Shown piece after piece: positions 26,103 to 55,804 of a DNA stretch of 64,000 bases. Position numbers and translations under genes: made by a program. The stretch comes from Nocardioides jiangsuensis (lineage in GTDB: Bacteria; Actinomycetota; Actinomycetes; Propionibacteriales; Nocardioidaceae): NCBI RefSeq assembly GCF_019679455.1, contig NZ_JAIEZQ010000002.1, forward strand, positions 62,001-126,000, given 5' to 3'. The stretch's first letter is position 1. Every line of letters starts with the position of its first letter. The notes beneath the pieces were generated by a model that was not told the origin of the DNA, ran no database searches, and worked only from the letters and a program-made list of their open reading frames with translations.

Positions 26103-27737
26103 TCAGACGAGGCGGACCGAGCGGACCACCCAGGCGCCCGAGGTCTTGTCGACGTCGAGGACCACGGGCAGGCCGACCAGGCCGGCAAGCTCCCCGGTCC
26201 GCGCCTCGATCCTGCCGTCCCCGTCGAGGTCGGTGCCGGCGTCGAGGGCGTCGAGGACCAGCGGGCGACCGTCGAGGCAGTAGCCGTCCGCGCAGGCCTC
26301 CCACAGTCCCGTCTCCCGGACCGTCGGGTCGTCGGGCGACGGCTCTCCCGACGGGTCCTTGGTCGGCTCCTTGGATGGGTCCTGGGTCGGGTCCGGGTCG
26401 GGCGACGGCTCCGGTGCGGGCTGCGGGTCCGGGGCAGGCTCCGGGGCCGGCGCGGGCTGTGGGGCGGGCTCGGGAGCGGGTGCCGGATCCGGGGCCGGCG
26501 CGGGCTGTGGGTCGGGCTCGGGAGCGGGTGCCGGATCCGGGGCCGGCGCGGGGTCCGGTGCGGGCGCGGGGTCGGGCCGGGGCGCGGGATCGGCCGGTCC
26601 CTCCGGCGCGGGCATCGGGTCCGGTGCGGGCGCGGGGTCCGGCGAGCGCGGCGGCCGGGCCGGGACACCGGGCGGCGCGGCGGGGAACAGCGGGATCGGC
26701 TCGACGGTCGGCCCGTCGCGCTGCTCCGGCACCACCGAGACGCGGGTGTCGCCCGCCGTACGGTCGCCGGCCGGCCGCTTGACGACGAGGGAGTCGATCC
26801 TGCGGGCCACCGTGGCCTGGCGGCGGACGACCTCCTCGCGGATCGACGGGTCGGCGGCCGCCCCGACGCCCGCCTTCAGCATCGGCAGGACGTTCGCGGC
26901 GGTCGGCACGGTCGGTCGCGAGAGCACCGTGTAGTCCCCGGTCCGGTAGCTGCGCTCGTAGGCCATCACCAGCGCGGCGTACGCCCCGGAGTTGTTGTAG
27001 CGCAGCAGCGCCTCGCGCATCGCCGCGGGCGCGTCGAGGGCGGCCGTGCCGGCGCAGAGGTACACCGCGGCCGCCATCGCGGCGTCGTCGATGTCGTGCG
27101 GGGAGCGGATGCCGTCGCTGTCGCCGTCCACGCCCGCGGCGGCCCAGGTGCTCGGGATGAACTGCATCGGGCCGACCGCGCGGTCCCAGATCGGGTCCCG
27201 GTCGAGCTCGCCGGCGTCGGTGTCGCGGATCGTCGCGATGCCGGGGGACCCGTCCAGCGGGAGGCCGATGACGGCGGGCCGGGAGACCCCGTCGGTGCCG
27301 AGCACCGCACCGCCGTACCGGCCGTGGTCGGACTCCACCCGACCGACCGCGGCGAGCAGCGTCCACGAGATCCTGCAGGCCGGGTCGACCGCACGGAGGA
27401 CCGTGGCCGCGCGCTGGTAGGCGTCGAGGGCGGTGGCGGGGATGTCGTGCGGGCCTCCGTCGCTCTCGGCGACGAGCCGGGTGCCCTTGGGGGAGACGAG
27501 CGAGACGCTCGTGGGCTGGCCGGGGGAGCCGGGTACGTCGACCACGGTCTCGGGGGTTTCGGGCAGGGTCCGGGGCGAGGCCTCGGCGCCGGCGACCTCC
27601 CCGGGCTGGGGGAGACGGAGCGTGCCGTCCACGGTCGTGGCCGGGGACGCCGTGGTCAGGGCCAGCGGCAGGACGACCAGCGCCGCGAGGACGTGACCCC
27701 GCCCGTGGCTGAACACCTTCGTCCACGTCTGTCGCAC
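26103..27737 (-). CDS. Secreted lytic transglycosylase with Pro-Ala repeat stalk
   Basis: A 544-residue exported protein. An N-terminal signal (HVLAALVVLPLALTTASPAT) leads to an SLT-like domain of the lytic murein transglycosylase type, with catalytic Glu135 in VGRVESDHGRYGG and with GPMQFIPSTWAAAGVDGDSD and AAAVYLCAG. After about residue 345 comes a stalk of PAPDP/PAPEP repeats, encoded partly by a 48-bp tandem repeat, then a small C-terminal domain with LDGDGRIEARTGE. It would cleave glycan strands during wall turnover. The stalk probably spans the wall. Confidence 0.88.
   Translation of the reverse strand: MRQTWTKVFSHGRGHVLAALVVLPLALTTASPATTVDGTLRLPQPGEVAGAEASPRTLPETPETVVDVPGSPGQPTSVSLVSPKGTRLVAESDGGPHDIPATALDAYQRAATVLRAVDPACRISWTLLAAVGRVESDHGRYGGAVLGTDGVSRPAVIGLPLDGSPGIATIRDTDAGELDRDPIWDRAVGPMQFIPSTWAAAGVDGDSDGIRSPHDIDDAAMAAAVYLCAGTAALDAPAAMREALLRYNNSGAYAALVMAYERSYRTGDYTVLSRPTVPTAANVLPMLKAGVGAAADPSIREEVVRRQATVARRIDSLVVKRPAGDRTAGDTRVSVVPEQRDGPTVEPIPLFPAAPPGVPARPPRSPDPAPAPDPMPAPEGPADPAPRPDPAPAPDPAPAPDPAPAPEPDPQPAPAPDPAPAPEPAPQPAPAPEPAPDPQPAPEPSPDPDPTQDPSKEPTKDPSGEPSPDDPTVRETGLWEACADGYCLDGRPLVLDALDAGTDLDGDGRIEARTGELAGLVGLPVVLDVDKTSGAWVVRSVRLV
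26418..26560. repeat. 48-bp in-frame tandem repeat (minisatellite)
   Basis: Blocks recur at a 48-bp period: ggggccggcgcgggctgt starts at 26443 and again at 26491, and gggctcgggagcgggtgccg starts at 26466 and again at 26514. Each unit encodes 16 residues of the Pro/Ala/Asp/Glu stalk, so gains or losses of a unit keep the frame. About three units are visible, with degenerate edges. Confidence 0.8.
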
Positions 27738-29861: not shown

Positions 29862-31142
29862 ATGAACGACCCCCAGAGCTGCTGCGCCGACTTCGCGCGC
29901 GCCTCCGGCCTGAGCCGCCGCCGCTTCCTCCAGGGCGTCGCCGCCACCGGGGCCGGCGCGGTGGCGACCACGATGTTCGGCGACGCGCTGCGCCAGGCGT
30001 CCTTCGCGGCGACGACCGGCGGCAACGTGCTCGTGGTGATCAGCCTCCGCGGCGGCATCGACGGGCTCGGCATGGTCGTCCCGCACGGCGACCCGGCCTA
30101 CTACGCCGCCCGCCCGACGATCGCGGTCCCGGCGTCGACGCTGGTCGCGAAGGACGGCATGTTCGGCCTGCACCCGGCGATGAAGCCGCTGGAGTGGCTC
30201 TACAACGGCGGCGAGCTCGCCGCCGTCCACGCGGTCGGCATGGACCAGCCGAACCGCTCGCACTTCCTGGCGATGGAGGAGATCGAGGACGCCGACCCGA
30301 CCTCGAGCGTCCGCCGCGGCTGGGTGAACCGGATGGTCGGCCTCGACGCCGGCAGCAGCCCGATCGAGGCGGTGCACCTGACCACCTCGATCGTGCCGAC
30401 CCTGCTCACCGGACCGTCGCCGACGCTGTCGGCCACTCACCTCGGCGAGTTCTCGCTGCCGGGCACCTCCGACACGTGGGGGGCGCGGCGCCGCCAGCAC
30501 CTCAACACGGTCTGGGGTGGCGCGTCGGGCGTGCTCGGTGCCGCCGGACGGTCCGCGCTCCAGGTGGTCGACCGGCTCGGTCCGGTCGCCGCCCAGACCT
30601 ACCAGCCGTCGAACGGCGTGGTGTACCCCAAGGAGTGGCCGGCCGGCGACCTCGCCGCCGCGCTCGCGGACACCGCGCAGCTGATCCGGGCCGACCTCGG
30701 CACCGAGATCATCTCCATCGACTACGGCTCGTGGGACATGCACAGCGAGTACGGCACCACGGCGTACGGCGAGATGTACTCGATGGTGACGGGCTTCGCG
30801 CTGGCGCTGAACGCGTTCATGCGCGACCTGGGCAGCCTCCGGTCGCGGGTCACGGTCGTGACGATCAGCGAGTTCGGCAGGAGGGTCGAGGAGAACGGCA
30901 ACAAGGGGCTCGACCACGGCTGGGGCAACATGATGCTCGTCGCCGGCGGCGGTGTCCGCGGCGGCCGGTACTACGCCCAGTGGCCGGGGCTGGGCTCCGG
31001 GAGCCTCCTGGACGGCGACCTCAAGGTGACCACCGACTACCGCAACGTGCTCGGCGAGGTCGTCGGGAAGCGCTTCCCGGACCGGTCGGTGACGAAGGTC
31101 TTCCCGGGCCTGACCTACCGCCCGCTCGGCGTGATGTCCTGA
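29862..31142 (+). CDS. DUF1501 domain protein, Tat-exported
   Basis: A 426-residue protein with a twin-arginine signal (SRRRFLQGVAATGAGAVATT). The DUF1501 core resembles the alkaline-phosphatase/sulfatase superfamily: VLVVISLRGGIDGLGMVVPH, HAVGMDQPNRSHFLAMEEIE, IISIDYGSWDMHSEYG and TISEFGRRVEENGNKGLDHG, whose Asp/His residues could bind metal. The start ATG has gagg 8 nt upstream. It is co-transcribed with DUF1800. One possibility is that the DUF1800 partner is carried out with it, since that protein has no export signal of its own. Confidence 0.88.
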   Translation: MNDPQSCCADFARASGLSRRRFLQGVAATGAGAVATTMFGDALRQASFAATTGGNVLVVISLRGGIDGLGMVVPHGDPAYYAARPTIAVPASTLVAKDGMFGLHPAMKPLEWLYNGGELAAVHAVGMDQPNRSHFLAMEEIEDADPTSSVRRGWVNRMVGLDAGSSPIEAVHLTTSIVPTLLTGPSPTLSATHLGEFSLPGTSDTWGARRRQHLNTVWGGASGVLGAAGRSALQVVDRLGPVAAQTYQPSNGVVYPKEWPAGDLAAALADTAQLIRADLGTEIISIDYGSWDMHSEYGTTAYGEMYSMVTGFALALNAFMRDLGSLRSRVTVVTISEFGRRVEENGNKGLDHGWGNMMLVAGGGVRGGRYYAQWPGLGSGSLLDGDLKVTTDYRNVLGEVVGKRFPDRSVTKVFPGLTYRPLGVMS

Positions 31143-31150
31143 AGCTCCCG

Positions 31151-31299
31151 CGTTGAGGCGTCACTCGTTCGGCGTTGAGACGTCACTCGTGCGGTGACGA
31201 GACGTCAGTCGTTCGGGAGCGGGACGTCCGCGGCGGAACGAGTGACTCCTCAACGCCGCACGACTGCCCTCTCAACGCGGCACGACTGCCCTCTCAACG
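31151..31299. repeat. Symmetrical array of 22-bp repeats
   Basis: Three inverted units (31151-31172, 31173-31194, 31195-31216) and three direct units (31234-31255, 31256-31277, 31278-31299) of one 22-bp sequence face each other across a short degenerate centre. The unit core is close to GAGTGACCTCTCAACG. The arms can pair into a long hairpin. The same unit occurs twice at 54640-54683. No spacers exist, so this is not a CRISPR. It lies directly after the DUF1501 stop. Confidence 0.85.
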
Positions 31300-31585
31300 C
31301 GTGAAGGCATCGCCCCCAGGCGCATCGGGGGACCGCGCCTGGGGGCGACGCCGGCGGACCGAGGGGGCGGTCACGCGGCGGTGCATGCTCACGACCGGCG
31401 GCGCGAAGGCCGCCCGGCAGGCGGGTCCGAGGGGGGAGGACCCGTTTCGTGGAGCACCTGTGGAGAGAGTAACCAGAGCGACTGTTGTGACGGATGGTCT
31501 TGACCAAACCGTGATGTCGCCCGTGTACGGCGAGCAGCCCCGGGTACCTCGAAGGCGCACCCGAACCCAGGAGGTACGACAGCTC
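31300..31585. other. Gene-free region between repeat array and SRPBCC gene
   Basis: No gene is supported. Its last part is slightly AT-richer and probably holds the promoter and leader of the SRPBCC gene, which has AGGAGG upstream of its start. Open frames here have no domain character. Confidence 0.5.
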
Positions 31586-32053
31586 ATGAGCACCATGACC
31601 GAGTCCGTGGACGTCAAGGTCCCCGTCAGCACCGCCTACAACCAGTGGACCCAGTTCGAGTCCTTCCCGCAGTTCATGGAGGGTGTGGAGAAGGTCGAGC
31701 AGCTCGACGACAAGCGCACGCTGTGGACCACCAAGATCGGCGGCCAGACGCGGCAGTTCCACGCCACGATCACCGAGCAGCACCCCGACGAGCGGGTCGC
31801 CTGGGCCTCCGAGAACGGGCCCCAGCACGCCGGCGTGGTCACCTTCCACCGGCTCAGCGACACCGAGTCCCGGGTGACCGCCCAGATGGACATCGACCCC
31901 GAGGGCTTCGCGGAGACCGCGGCCGACAAGTTCGGGCTGATCGAGCGCCGGGTCAAGGCCGACATGGAGCGGTTCAAGACCTTCATCGAGAAGCGCGGCG
32001 TCGAGGAAGGCTCCTGGCGCGGGGACGTGGAGGCGCCGCCGCAGCACGGCTGA
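31586..32053 (+). CDS. SRPBCC family (START-like) protein
   Basis: A 155-residue single-domain protein of the polyketide cyclase/SRPBCC fold: VDVKVPVSTAYNQWTQFESF, PQFMEGVEKVEQLDDKRTLW, RVAWASENGPQHAGVVTFHR, and a long C-terminal helix (ADMERFKTFIEKRG). Members bind hydrophobic ligands in a deep cavity. The specific role is unknown. ATG at 31586 has AGGAGG at about 13 nt; the second ATG (codon 4) is an alternative. A hairpin terminator follows at 32070-32105. Confidence 0.85.
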   Translation: MSTMTESVDVKVPVSTAYNQWTQFESFPQFMEGVEKVEQLDDKRTLWTTKIGGQTRQFHATITEQHPDERVAWASENGPQHAGVVTFHRLSDTESRVTAQMDIDPEGFAETAADKFGLIERRVKADMERFKTFIEKRGVEEGSWRGDVEAPPQHG

Positions 32054-33323: not shown

Positions 33324-35521
33324 GCGTCTGCCTTCCGCTCGGCGCCGGCCGGCCGGGCAGCCGCCTGCTGGGCTACGTCCTGCCGGCCGTCGGCCGGCGG
33401 GCTGTCGGTCGGCGGGGAGCCCGCCTGCTGGGTGCCGGCCTGCTGGGTGCCGGCCTGCTGGGCCTGGATCGCGGTGATCGCGACGGTGTTCACGATGTCG
33501 CGCACCGTCGCGCCCCGGGACAGGTCGTTGACCGGCCGCCGCAGCCCCTGGAGCACCGGTCCGACCGCGACGGCGCCGGCCGAGCGCTGTACCGCCTTGT
33601 AGGTGTTGTTGCCGGTGTTCAGGTCCGGGAAGACGAAGACCGTGGCCCGCCCGGCGACCTTCGAGTCGGGCAGCTTGGTGTGCGCGACGGCGGCGTCGAT
33701 CGCGGCGTCGTACTGGATCGGCCCCTCCACGAGCAGCTCCGGCGCCCGCTCGCGGACCAGCGCGGTCGCCTTGGACACCTTCTCCACGTCGGTGCCCGCG
33801 CCGGACGACCCGGTGGAGTAAGACAGCATCGCCACCCGCGGCTCGACCCCGAAGGCGGCCGCGGTCGCCGCGGAGGAGATCGCGATGTCGGCCAGCTGCT
33901 CCGCGGTCGGGTCCGGGTTGACCGCGCAGTCGCCGTACACCAGCACCTGGTTCTCCAGGCACATGAAGAACACCGAGGACACCACCGAGACCCCGGGCCT
34001 GGTCTTGACCACTTCCAGGGCCGGCCGGATCGTGTGGGCCGTGGTGTGTACGGCGCCCGACACCATGCCGTCCGCGAGGCCGAGCAGCACCATCATCGTG
34101 CCGAAGTAGGAGACGTCGGTGACGATGTCGCGGGCGTCGTGGAGGTCCACGCCCCTGTGCTTGCGGCGCTCGGTGTAGTCCCGGGCGAACCGCTCGCGGA
34201 GCTCCTCGTCGAACGGGCTGAGCAGGGTGGCCCTCGACACGTCCGCGCCGATGCTCGCGGCCTTCGCGCTGATCGCGATCGGGTCGCCGAGCAGGGTCAG
34301 GTCCGCCACGCCGCGCCGGAGCAGGATGTCCGCGGCGCGGAGCACCCGCTCCTCCTCGCCCTCGGGCAGCACGATGTGGCGCCGGTCGGCGACCGCGTCG
34401 TCGATGAGCTGGTGCTCGAACATCAGCGGGGTCACCGCGGCGCTGCGGGCCACCTCCAGCCGGTCGAGCAGCACGTCGCCGTCCACGTGGGTGGAGAACA
34501 GCGCGAGCGCGGTCGCCACCTTGCGCGGCGCGTCCTTGGTGAGCCGGCCGCGGACCGCGGTGAGCGCGGCGGAGGTGGCGTGGGTGCCGAGCGCGGTCGC
34601 GATGAGCGGCATGGTCACGCCGAGACCCTCGATCAGCCGGGTCACCGGCTCGGGCATCTCGAAGCCGCCGTTGAGCACGACCGCGGCTACCTGCGGGAAG
34701 TTGGGGGAGGCGTGCGCCATCAGCACGCCGAGCACCACCTCGGGCCGGTCGCCGGGGGTGATCACCACGCCGCCCTCGATCAGCCGGTCGAGCACGTTGG
34801 GCATCGTCATCGCGGCCACCACCAGGCCGGTTGCCTCGCGGTGCAGCAGCGACTCGTCGCCGCTGACCAGCTGTCCGTCGACGGCGTGCATCAGGTCGGC
34901 CACCGAGGGGGCGCTGAGCAGCGGCTCCTCGGGGATCGCGAACGCCGGCACGTCGTCGCTGCCGAGCGCGGACACGTCGGCGGCGACCTCGGCGGCGTCG
35001 ACCCGGTTGGCGATGATCGCGAACAGGGTGCCGTGGTTGGCGTGGAGCTCGGCGACCGCCATGTCGGTCACGGTGTGCAGCTCCTCGGGAGTGCGGCCGG
35101 CGCCGTTGAGGACCAGCAGCACGGGGGCACCGAGGTTGGCCGCGATCCGGGCGTTGTAGGAGAACTCGGTCGGCGTGCCCACGTCGGTGTAGTCGCTGCC
35201 GACGACCACCACGACGTCGCAGCGGTCGGCCACCTGGTGGTACCGCTCGACGATCCGGTCCAGCGCCGCGACCGGGTCCTCGTGCACCTCCTCGTAGGTG
35301 ACGCCCACGCAGTCGTCGTACGACAGGGTGACCGCGTCGTGCGCGGTGAGCAGGTCCAGCACGTAGTCACGTCCGCCGTACACGTCACGGTCGGCCCGCA
35401 CGATCGGGCGGAACACACCCACCCGCTCGACCCGCCGCGACAGCTGCTCGAGCACCCCCAGGGCCACGGTCGACTTCCCCGTGAACCCCTCCACCGACGC
35501 GACGTACACACTGCTGCCCAT
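33320..35521 (-). CDS. pta: Phosphate acetyltransferase
   Basis: A 733-residue long-form Pta. The N-terminal P-loop domain (VYVASVEGFTGKSTVALGVL) and the central DRTGG domain are followed by the catalytic PTA_PTB domain (RHIVLPEGEEERVLRAADIL, YGDCAVNPDPTAEQLADIAI, FVFPDLNTGNNTYKAVQRSA). It forms acetyl phosphate from acetyl-CoA. After the normal end (DIVNTVAITAIQAQ) it carries an odd ~45-residue tail of QQAGT/PPADG repeats, which looks like a local 15-bp repeat expansion. It overlaps ackA by 4 bp. Confidence 0.94.
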   Translation of the reverse strand: MGSSVYVASVEGFTGKSTVALGVLEQLSRRVERVGVFRPIVRADRDVYGGRDYVLDLLTAHDAVTLSYDDCVGVTYEEVHEDPVAALDRIVERYHQVADRCDVVVVVGSDYTDVGTPTEFSYNARIAANLGAPVLLVLNGAGRTPEELHTVTDMAVAELHANHGTLFAIIANRVDAAEVAADVSALGSDDVPAFAIPEEPLLSAPSVADLMHAVDGQLVSGDESLLHREATGLVVAAMTMPNVLDRLIEGGVVITPGDRPEVVLGVLMAHASPNFPQVAAVVLNGGFEMPEPVTRLIEGLGVTMPLIATALGTHATSAALTAVRGRLTKDAPRKVATALALFSTHVDGDVLLDRLEVARSAAVTPLMFEHQLIDDAVADRRHIVLPEGEEERVLRAADILLRRGVADLTLLGDPIAISAKAASIGADVSRATLLSPFDEELRERFARDYTERRKHRGVDLHDARDIVTDVSYFGTMMVLLGLADGMVSGAVHTTAHTIRPALEVVKTRPGVSVVSSVFFMCLENQVLVYGDCAVNPDPTAEQLADIAISSAATAAAFGVEPRVAMLSYSTGSSGAGTDVEKVSKATALVRERAPELLVEGPIQYDAAIDAAVAHTKLPDSKVAGRATVFVFPDLNTGNNTYKAVQRSAGAVAVGPVLQGLRRPVNDLSRGATVRDIVNTVAITAIQAQQAGTQQAGTQQAGSPPTDSPPADGRQDVAQQAAARPAGAERKADA

Positions 35522-44013: not shown

Positions 44014-44046
44014 ACCGGTGTTCGTCAGGCCTGACGTTTCGACCTC

Positions 44047-45162
44047 TTAGCTCTTAGCCGAGATCTTCTCGACGATACCGAGAGCCTTCTCCTGCAGCGA
44101 GGCCGGGAGCGGCGCGGAGCCTGCGGTCTCGGCGGCGGCCTGCTGGCCCTCGTCGCCCACGACGTAGGTCAGGAAACCCTTGACCAGGTCGGCCTCGTCC
44201 TTGCTCTCGTAGGTCTGGCAGGCGATCAGGTACGACGTGAGCACGACCGGGTAGGCGCCGGCCTCCGTCGTCTTGCGGTCGAGCTCGAAGGCCATGTCGA
44301 CCTCGGCGCGACCCTCGACGGGGGGCGAGACCTCGAGGACCTTGGCCGCGGCCTCGGGGGTCGGCTGGACGTACTCCTCGCCGACCTTCACCGAGGCGAC
44401 GCCGAGGTCACCGGCCTGGCTGGCGTCGGCGTAGCCGATGGTGCCGGTGCCGTTCTTGACCGCGGCCACGAGGCCGGAGGTGCCGGACGCGGCCTCGCCA
44501 CCCTTCGTCGGCCACAGGCCCTCGGGCTCGTGCGGCCACGCGCCCTCGCCGGCCTGGCTCAGGTAGTCGGTGAAGTTGTCCGTCGTACCCGAGTCGTCGG
44601 CGCGGTGGACGGGGGTGATCGTCTCGGCCGGAAGGTCCGCGTCGGGGTTCTCCGCGGCGATCTTCGGGTCGTTCCACTTGGTGATCTTGCCGTCGAAGAT
44701 CTCGGCGATCACGGGAGCGGAGAGCTGAAGGTTGTCGACGCCCTCGAGGTTGTAGACGACCGCGATCGGGCTGACGTAGTTCGGGACCTCGATCGGGTCC
44801 TCGTTGAGGCAGCGCTTCTTGGCGCCGCTGAGCTCGCCCTCCTCGTCGTCGAGGTAGGAGTCGGAGCCGGCGAACTCGACGCCGCCTGCGATGAACTGCT
44901 CGCGGCCGCCGCCCGAGCCGACCGGGTCGTAGTTCACGGTGACCTCGGGGTTCGCGGTCTGGAAGCCGGCCTGCCAGGCGGCCATGGCGGCCTCCTGCGA
45001 GCTGGCGCCGGCACCGTTGAGCGTGCCGCTCGCGCCCTCGACGGTCGCGGCGGAGTTGGTCGAGGCCTCCTCGTTGCCGGCGGCGCAGCCGGTGAGGCCG
45101 AGGCCGAGGGTGAGCACCGCGATGCCGGGGGCGGCCGCTCGGCGGAAGGAAGTGCGTGTCAC
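44047..45162 (-). CDS. pstS: Phosphate-binding lipoprotein PstS
   Basis: A 371-residue periplasmic-type binding protein, lipid-anchored through the cysteine in LGLGLTGCAAG. Phosphate-contacting segments are NGAGASSQEAAMAAW, DPVGSGGGREQFIAG, FAGSDSYL and the DSGTTDNFTDYL loop. It delivers phosphate to PstCAB. GTG at 45162 has AGGAG 7 nt upstream. A PHO-box array lies ~60 bp upstream. Confidence 0.96.
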   Translation of the reverse strand: MTRTSFRRAAAPGIAVLTLGLGLTGCAAGNEEASTNSAATVEGASGTLNGAGASSQEAAMAAWQAGFQTANPEVTVNYDPVGSGGGREQFIAGGVEFAGSDSYLDDEEGELSGAKKRCLNEDPIEVPNYVSPIAVVYNLEGVDNLQLSAPVIAEIFDGKITKWNDPKIAAENPDADLPAETITPVHRADDSGTTDNFTDYLSQAGEGAWPHEPEGLWPTKGGEAASGTSGLVAAVKNGTGTIGYADASQAGDLGVASVKVGEEYVQPTPEAAAKVLEVSPPVEGRAEVDMAFELDRKTTEAGAYPVVLTSYLIACQTYESKDEADLVKGFLTYVVGDEGQQAAAETAGSAPLPASLQEKALGIVEKISAKS

Positions 45163-54308: not shown

Positions 54309-54617
54309 ATGGGTGACGAGGCTTCGGCAATCCGCGAGGGCGAGACGGCACAGTCCGTTGTCGTGCACTTCTGGGCAGCGGCCCGAGCGGCCGCCGGGAC
54401 CGGCCAGGAGCGGGTGCCCCTGGACGAGGCGAAGACGGTGGCCGACCTGCTCGAGACGGTACGGCGGCGGCACGCGGACCGTCCCCGGCTGGCCGACGTG
54501 CTCTCGGTCTGCTCGGTGCTCGTGGGTGACCGGCCGGTCGGTACGACGGACCCGGCGGACGTCGTGCTCCAGGACGGGGACACCGTGGAGCTGCTCCCGC
54601 CGTTCGCCGGAGGCTGA
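54309..54617 (+). CDS. MoaD/ThiS family sulfur-carrier protein
   Basis: A 102-residue ubiquitin-like protein: [20 protein letters not shown], a helix ([13 protein letters not shown]), and the terminal PPFAGG whose Gly-Gly is adenylated and thiocarboxylated. It resembles a MoaD subunit of molybdopterin synthase, but no moa genes are adjacent. It is divergent from glnR. Confidence 0.85.
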
Positions 54618-54639: not shown

Positions 54640-54683
54640 CCGAACGAGTGACCTCTCAACGCCGCACGAGTGACCTCTCAACG
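54640..54683 (+). repeat. Two tandem 22-bp repeats (same family as 31151-31299)
   Basis: Units at 54640-54661 and 54662-54683 share the ACGAGTGACCTCTCAACG core seen at 31234-31299. They lie directly after the MoaD gene. Confidence 0.85.
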
Positions 54684-54895
54684 TGGAAGTTATGCGGTGG
54701 TTCGGGGGATTTTCGCGTGCAAGTTTCGGGAGTTCCGCCCTCATAAAGTAAAACCTGGCCCGAATGGGCCATATCGGCGTGACCACGGGAACCACTCGTC
54801 GTTGAAGATCGCACGAACGTACAACGAACTGCGTTCGCGGTTCCTGGCTCCGAAGCTGAGCCGGGGGGGAAATCTTTACAGGTAGGGAGCACGCG
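54684..54895. promoter_or_regulatory. AT-richer leader region of the LPXTG gene
   Basis: This stretch is noticeably less GC-rich than its surroundings. It contains the palindrome tggcccgaatgggcca (54756-54771) and no convincing gene. It probably holds the promoter and leader of the surface protein. I could not match it to a known riboswitch. Confidence 0.4.
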
Positions 54896-55804
54896 ATGCA
54901 GCACGCCCTTTTCCGGGTGGCCACGGCCACCTTCGTCACCGTCTTCGCCACCGTCGGGGTCGTCGGCCCCGTCCATGCGGAGCAGGCCTCCAGCCACGCG
55001 AGCGGCACCGCCGCCACGCAGGGGGACCCGACCGAGCCGCAGCCCGAGAGCAAGGCCGACAAGAACGACGGCGGCGCCAACTCCTACGACTGTGAGAACG
55101 GGCCCGAGGGTCCGTACTGCTCGACCCGCGACGGGTCCCCGTCGGAGAACGGCAAGGGCGACGGTGAGGCCACCGGCCGTCCCGCCGCCGGCAGCGTCGG
55201 CAAGGCCGACAACAAGAACCCGCAGGGCCAGGAGCCCGGTCCGAGCGACCGGAACAACGGCTACGAGTGCGACGGCAACCAGGGCATCGCCCAGGGCAAC
55301 CCCGCCCACACCGGCTGCACCGACTCCACCCCGCCGGTGGAGGAGGAGCCGGAGAAGACCTGCCCCGACGGCACCCCGATGTCCGAGGACGGCAACTGCG
55401 GCACCCCGGAGACCCCGACCACGCCCGAGACCCCGACCACGCCGGAGCAGCCGACGACCCCTGAGGAGCCGAGCAACCCCGGCACCCCCGAGGAGCCCAC
55501 CGTTCCGATGACCCCGGAGCAGCCGGCCGTGCCGGGTGGCCCCGCGGTCCCCGGCTTCGTCGAGGAGGAGATCGGCGGGCCCGAGGTGCTCGGCGTAGAG
55601 GGCGAGATGGCCGCCACCGCGAACCGCGCCCCGGTCACGGTCGCTCCCGCTGCCGTGGCTCCCGCCGCCGCTGTGGCGCCGGCCGAAGGCGTCCTGCCCG
55701 CGACCGGCGCCGACGACCTGGCCCTGGTGGCGCTCGGTGGCCTCGGTCTCCTCGCCGCCGGCGGCGTGATGGTCGCCCGCAAGCGTCCCCAGAGCAGCCG
55801 CTGA
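54896..55804 (+). CDS. LPXTG-anchored surface protein
   Basis: A 302-residue sortase substrate. An N-terminal signal (VATATFVTVFATVGVVGPVH, cleavage after AHA-like VHA) is followed by a charged region with paired cysteines (SYDCENGPEGPYC, GYECDGNQGIAQGNPAHTGC). A Pro/Thr/Glu stalk (TPETPTTPEQPTTPEEP) precedes LPATG (267-271), a hydrophobic helix and a basic tail (ARKRPQSSR). It should be linked covalently to the wall. The YECDGNQGIAQGNPAHTGC-type motif is recurrent in actinobacterial surface proteins. No sortase gene lies in the window. A strong terminator follows. Confidence 0.87.
   Translation: MQHALFRVATATFVTVFATVGVVGPVHAEQASSHASGTAATQGDPTEPQPESKADKNDGGANSYDCENGPEGPYCSTRDGSPSENGKGDGEATGRPAAGSVGKADNKNPQGQEPGPSDRNNGYECDGNQGIAQGNPAHTGCTDSTPPVEEEPEKTCPDGTPMSEDGNCGTPETPTTPETPTTPEQPTTPEEPSNPGTPEEPTVPMTPEQPAVPGGPAVPGFVEEEIGGPEVLGVEGEMAATANRAPVTVAPAAVAPAAAVAPAEGVLPATGADDLALVALGGLGLLAAGGVMVARKRPQSSR

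Follow-up and report, generated by a model that had tools for sequence, protein, structure and literature searches.

What does a symmetrical array of a short repeat do behind a bacterial gene? In a 64,000-nucleotide stretch of the Nocardioides jiangsuensis genome, called the window here, a 22-bp unit follows a DUF1501 gene in three copies, which are faced by three opposed copies. A first-pass annotation made from the letters alone had described this arrangement, together with two tandem copies of the same period behind a MoaD gene, and both sites are recovered (Table 1). It had also stated that the units carry no spacers: they indeed abut at 22 bp with no unique sequence between them, which excludes a CRISPR array. 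The window holds ten motif matches with at most three mismatches, seven of them exact, where 1.85 are expected and the largest of 100 shuffles gives seven; the weight model found no unit in five shuffles of the window.

Table 1 Features of the window that bear on the 22-bp arrays.
Feature	Position	Strand	Remark
DUF1501 gene (PF07394)	29862..31142	+	Arrays 1 and 2 at its 3' end
Array 1: three 22-bp units, third degenerate	31149..31214	+	Sense of upstream DUF1501 gene
Centre between opposed arrays 1 and 2	31215..31235	.	
Array 2: three opposed units	31236..31301	-	Sense on - strand; without convergent gene behind
Possible lone degenerate unit	44025..44046	-	At 3' end of - strand gene 44047-45117; single weak unit
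MoaD/ThiS-family gene (PF02597)	54309..54617	+	Upstream of array 3
Array 3: two tandem units	54642..54685	-	Antisense to upstream MoaD/ThiS gene

In the weight-model frame, array 1 starts 6 nt past the DUF1501 stop codon. Array 3 is one of the 11 out of 60 own-genome arrays with an exceptional orientation; the product of the gene that follows it (54896-55801) bears an LPXTG cell-wall anchor motif (PF00746). Elsewhere in the window, dense short-period tandem repeats (periods 12-60) lie inside predicted genes at 26340-26642 and 33337-33463.

The two sites, 23 kb apart in the first account, are both real but turn out to be part of a genome-wide family. In the 3.97-Mb genome (4 contigs, Nocardioidaceae) the exact motif has 96 matches and its reversed control none. 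A weight-model scan of 35 stretches, the window and 34 others around motif matches, yielded 207 units, which group into 64 arrays. Most have three copies (30 arrays) or four (17); two copies occur in 7, five in 5 and six in one, and 4 consist of a single unit. These counts are slightly low, with at least three loci (C1:686433, C1:1254807 and C2:127148) outside the scanned stretches. In sense orientation the unit reads approximately CGTYGAGRSGTCASTCGTKCGG; at positions 8-9, GC, AG and AC are common and GG is rare (4 of 203 units). The arrays are spread over contigs C1, C2 and C3, which rules out a plasmid iteron or origin, a single cluster by a Rep gene or origin.

The period is strict. Among spacings of up to 34 bp counted in 11 genomes, 358 of 361 are exactly 22 bp. 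As for placement, which the annotation had proposed to tabulate relative to stop codons, arrays adjoin the 3' ends of genes: 104 of 124 sense-side starts fall within -10 to +15 nt of a stop codon, compared with only 16 of 40 where single arrays are measured on their antisense side. The first core supplies the stop codon, as its TGA, in 14 of 47 own-genome cases, 13 of 29 in G296, 9 of 16 in G399, 3 of 7 in G484 and 1 of 2 in G411, but in none of 10 in G319 and none of 6 in G298 (counts read from distance lists; relatives are cited by G numbers). A three-frame stop cassette, in which 22 mod 3 = 1 would bring TGA into three frames, is weakened as an explanation by 48 of 202 copies that read TCGA, not TTGA, and by dialects reading CGCCGAG.

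Own-genome arrays of at least two copies (n = 60) divide into 31 convergent, 18 sense-tandem, 9 antisense-tandem and 2 divergent cases. Counted by gaps, in stretches that were chosen for holding arrays, arrays occupy 22 of 47 gaps between convergent genes, 23 of 177 tandem and 2 of 49 divergent ones (p=2e-6 for convergent against tandem). Gene calls came throughout from a home-made caller based on codon usage, and single gene contexts may be wrong; G435 was left out of the weight-model array counts for its spurious matches and enters only the distance set described below, by way of a dialect-free finder. In all 47 cases where opposed arrays are neighbours, they point towards each other and never apart. 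Of 156 classified arrays, 62 are unpaired. The orientation of single arrays in tandem gaps, 19 sense versus 9 antisense, is only a trend (p=0.09) and a polar function is not proved. A home-made finder located T-tract terminators after 1 of 47 array ends versus 10 of 128 array-less ends (p=0.29); arrays neither clearly replace nor need such terminators.

The distances between facing arrays carry further information. We define D as the distance between the innermost opposing cores. In the own genome, the weight model gives 13 pairs with D of 49 (four times), 60, 61, 71 (twice), 82, 83, 87, 93 and 147, for which R(11)=0.82 (p=2e-4). A dialect-free core finder gives 10 pairs, nine with D equal to 5 mod 11 and one to 4, in two classes mod 22; none of 200,000 random sets equalled this regularity. 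The window pair, with its innermost cores 60 bp apart (60 mod 11 = 5), has the phase of the genome's other pairs. The dialect-free finder reports 109 "arrays" in the own stretches versus 64 by the weight model, meaning that it splits or over-calls, and it was applied to distances only.

Among the relatives, 73 pairs from 12 of 14 genomes show a best period of 10.5 bp (R=0.66, p=1.6e-14), with R near 0 at 21 and 22 bp; the other two genomes, G159 and G411, were examined and yielded no pairs. Limiting the set to D of at least 35 gives the same R of 0.66 (n=55). The phasing was first seen in G000, G296, G399 and G319; 60 more loci were then fetched, and the 32 pairs obtained afterwards, from ten genomes, have R=0.59 at 10.5 bp (p=1.2e-5). 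Their phase is 8.7, where the first set predicts 0 mod 10.5, so that the expectation held only roughly (V(0)=0.27); the two finders differ in which innermost units they pick, and this may account for the mismatch. Counting each distinct D once per genome gives p=1.5e-10, the 29 pairs outside G296, G399, G484 and G499 give p=2e-4, and of 5000 trials in which every D was jittered by as much as 10 bp none attained the observed R. Of the 73 pairs, 66 deviate by no more than a quarter turn from the common phase, itself estimated from the same data; the exception is G298, with 3 of 6 in phase.

The centres between paired arrays are mostly unlike one another. Alike centres were found in 1 of 45 comparisons in the own genome, 6 of 153 in G296, 1 of 36 in G399 and 0 of 36 in G499; because of this shared ancestry, and of some orthologous loci of G296 and G399, the phasing p-values are too small. 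We interpret helical phasing across mostly unlike centres as the signature of a DNA double helix that is read along one side, and the reading of the arrays at the level of DNA is well supported.

Altogether, we propose, at a probability of roughly 45%, that these are protein-binding DNA arrays marking the 3' ends of transcription units, likely as a boundary. A protein-binding array was one of the options of the first-pass annotation, and it is the one favoured by the strict 22-bp spacing and the helical phasing; the protein itself is putative. A sequence-specific protein would occupy a core, CGTYGAGNNG with added dialect bases, at each 22-bp step (about two turns of the helix), and its successive molecules would line up along one side of the double helix. 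Two arrays would often stand head to head, mostly between convergent genes, and their mutual helical register suggests contact between two filaments. The likely job of such a structure would be to halt RNA polymerase, or slow it down, as it moves out of one gene, which would prevent read-through into the next gene or antisense to it.

That DNA-bound proteins act as polymerase roadblocks is established, according to an excerpt of one paper (PMC10310618). The array family may be a gene-boundary signal of an undescribed kind. We are more doubtful about the stronger version of this idea, namely a boundary dedicated to Nocardioidaceae, in which putative protein filaments on one DNA face at gene ends are often paired head to head and the recognition sequence, in step with the protein, drifts between species. 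Such a boundary would be a bacterial counterpart of the roadblock terminators, bound to DNA, of eukaryotic polymerases.

How far does the family extend? The exact own-genome motif has no match in 38 relatives, because their dialects differ and not because the repeat is missing. A scan for three copies of the core CGTYGAGNNG every 22 bp, with at most three mismatches, matched 128 of 294 sampled Nocardioidaceae genomes in 15 of 26 genera, as dialects around this core, and a hand count of the table gives 46 genomes with at least ten (overlapping) matches. A dispersed intergenic repeat family, another option of the annotation, is thus borne out by these matches and the 64 own-genome arrays. The annotation had further held that a search of the genome and its relatives would decide between such a family and chance duplication: the period is conserved and the loci are many. 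A match is missing from 166 of the 294 genomes, which weighs against the boundary reading; they can either do without the system or have dialects that the pattern overlooked.

The reversed-pattern control is low in most matched genomes and high in some (e.g. G159, G198 and G296), where it is not independent because a 22-bp lattice can match the reversed pattern too. Beyond Nocardioidaceae, the order sample gave two single matches (G191 and G291; at most two mismatches); the class sample, scanned with a two-copy pattern and one mismatch at most, gave five. Copy number differs strongly between genomes and presence is patchy. One genome of another genus (g20), G382, has a local run of 22-bp repeats at C2:424801-425565, where all eleven of its listed matches lie.

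An array stands at only 1 of 7 homologous DUF1501 gene ends examined in other genomes: in the congener G002, a DUF1501 homologue (74% identical protein) is followed by three copies in another dialect, placed as in the window, and the remaining six ends (two each in G001 and G008, one each in G005 and G007) have none. A 118-kb sample of G003, too small to judge by, contains no period-22 array. In 14 clusters of homologous genes, some of them broad families such as ABC transporters and response regulators and therefore not all orthologues, arrays occur in at least two genomes; in a MoaA cluster, recognised by eye, the arrays of G296 and those of G298 belong to different dialects. When orthologous arrays of G296 and G399 are set side by side (five comparisons), differences affect 22 of 180 sites in the core (positions 1-12) and 57 of 150 in the remainder (p=6e-8). 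Selection on a recognition site is a better fit to this than neutral copies.

This core conservation bears on the first of the alternatives, which we consider unlikely: that the arrays are selfish or neutral dispersed repeats, REP- or MITE-like, without host function and settled at gene ends that tolerate insertion. Their dispersal between genes, variable copy number and patchy presence would suit such a repeat, as would the copies within one array, which are slightly more alike than copies from different loci (18.2 versus 17.7 of 22). However, a single insertion would not place the first core on both convergent stop codons, as is the case at L132, L135, L144 and L163, and neither the helical phasing despite mostly unlike centres nor the conserved core is accounted for. 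Nor was a RAYT-type transposase found in the genome: PF01797 has no match in it, and matches in 5 of 14 control genomes.

REP and BIME elements are described, in excerpts of two papers (PMC3733652; PMC2817692), as dispersed, intergenic and multicopy, with species-specific variants and located mainly downstream of genes. The arrays share with them the downstream placement and the convergent and unidirectional gaps counted above. In contrast to their regularly spaced alternating palindromes, the arrays are 22-bp direct repeats, have no hairpin tendency of their own (mean z from -0.87 to +0.32 in seven genomes; -0.04 in the own genome), and their own-genome arms match worse than shuffled ones. 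The missing hairpin and the missing transposase rule out a REP element, and the REP-like option of the annotation fails in this strict sense. REP palindromes, 20-40 bp long and able to form a hairpin by themselves, bear a GTAG or CGTC tag at one end; own units with C at position 9 do contain CGTC internally, but no adjoining palindrome was seen.

An RNA element is somewhat more improbable than a selfish repeat. Here, inverted arrays would form one long hairpin in the transcript, terminating transcription both ways or protecting the 3' end. The window pair folds strongly as RNA (z -6.9), as inverted repeats do, and L139 and L158 are near-perfect inverted repeats. The long hairpin that the annotation saw at 31 kb is imperfect: the third left copy is degenerate and the arms differ. 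Across the own genome, arms of one locus match each other worse than permuted arms (12 pairs, 16.25 versus 16.99 of 22; 0 of 2000 permutations as low), form weaker duplexes (-52.0 versus -57.3 kcal/mol, P=0.004) and tend to have different variants at positions 8-9 (P=0.005). This avoidance of perfect palindromes may reflect palindrome instability. In G399 the arms are slightly more alike than shuffled ones (p=0.03), whereas G296, G319 and G484 show no significant effect.

Arms that are in general not covarying, and that in the own genome do the opposite of what is expected, together with arrays that are unstructured on their own, lead us to reject a covarying RNA hairpin; the structured RNA suggested by the annotation is not supported. 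The unpaired arrays also count against an RNA element, as does the 10.5-bp phasing, which hairpins do not need. An Rfam scan of window positions 31000-31650 gave three matches, all below cut-off, the best at 19.2 bits versus a cut-off of 69, which excludes a known Rfam family at the 31-kb site.

The least probable of these alternatives is a topology site, where arrays would bind gyrase or a nucleoid protein as positive supercoils pile up downstream of genes. Gyrase binding at supercoil-prone gene ends has been proposed for BIMEs in E. coli. The position of the arrays between convergent genes and after transcription units would agree with such a site, as would phasing at the DNA level. Against it, the arrays are confined to one family in the searched samples and change sequence between species, unlike gyrase, which is to our knowledge nearly universal. 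More broadly, a supercoiling role, or no role, is possible for the arrays. A mini-transposon with cargo is dismissed by what lies between opposed arrays, predicted genes where they are widely spaced and short sequence where they are close.

For protein-binding arrays, the closest known parallels are in spacing rather than in place. Plasmid iterons are spaced by 22 bp on the same helical face. BvgA dimers likewise lie on one helical face with 22 bp from centre to centre, as stated in an excerpt of one paper (PMC7250471), and the arrays share this same-face geometry, with a constant spacing near whole helical turns and opposed arrays in 10.5-11 bp phase. BvgA and iteron arrays belong to promoters or replication origins; ours are placed at the 3' ends of dozens of genes and frequently meet head to head.

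Two other repeats resemble the arrays in part. The MIRU repeats of mycobacteria overlap a stop codon, as the arrays often do, and differ by their longer, co-directional units inside operons. In Beggiatoaceae, TAACTGA direct repeats form many intergenic sets of two to six copies, their function being unproven in the excerpt at hand; unlike the arrays, they have a 7-bp unit, lie mostly just upstream of start codons and are suggested to act in translation (PMC4679880). The open-licence PMC papers that were searched contain no match to the array motif strings, and among them we found no paper on such repeats in Nocardioides. The arrays are akin to known kinds, namely dispersed 3'-end repeats and phased binding arrays, and there is a real chance that they are something more.

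In this high-GC genome, the few T-tract terminators found by our home-made finder, even at array-less ends, make it a question how transcription units end, and an array system at stop codons and between convergent genes would be a directly testable answer to it. The helical ladder between opposed arrays predicts an effect of shifting one array by five bases, and the dialects lend themselves, as a natural experiment, to the study of how protein and DNA coevolve.

Two further repeats were noted in passing. The palindrome CCGTACGG occurs about 0.3 times per kb near arrays and equally in other intergenic DNA of the own stretches, and an apparent link to the arrays was not borne out; outside array neighbourhoods overall it has only 0.10 occurrences per kb, and it is perhaps part of a hairpin family. 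Viral contigs L129 (7550-7638) and L130 (123-167 and 553-597) carry 11-bp repeats that look like CGTTGARCG, and those of L130 form an opposed pair. We judge them unrelated to the 22-bp array family; they are possibly replication iterons.
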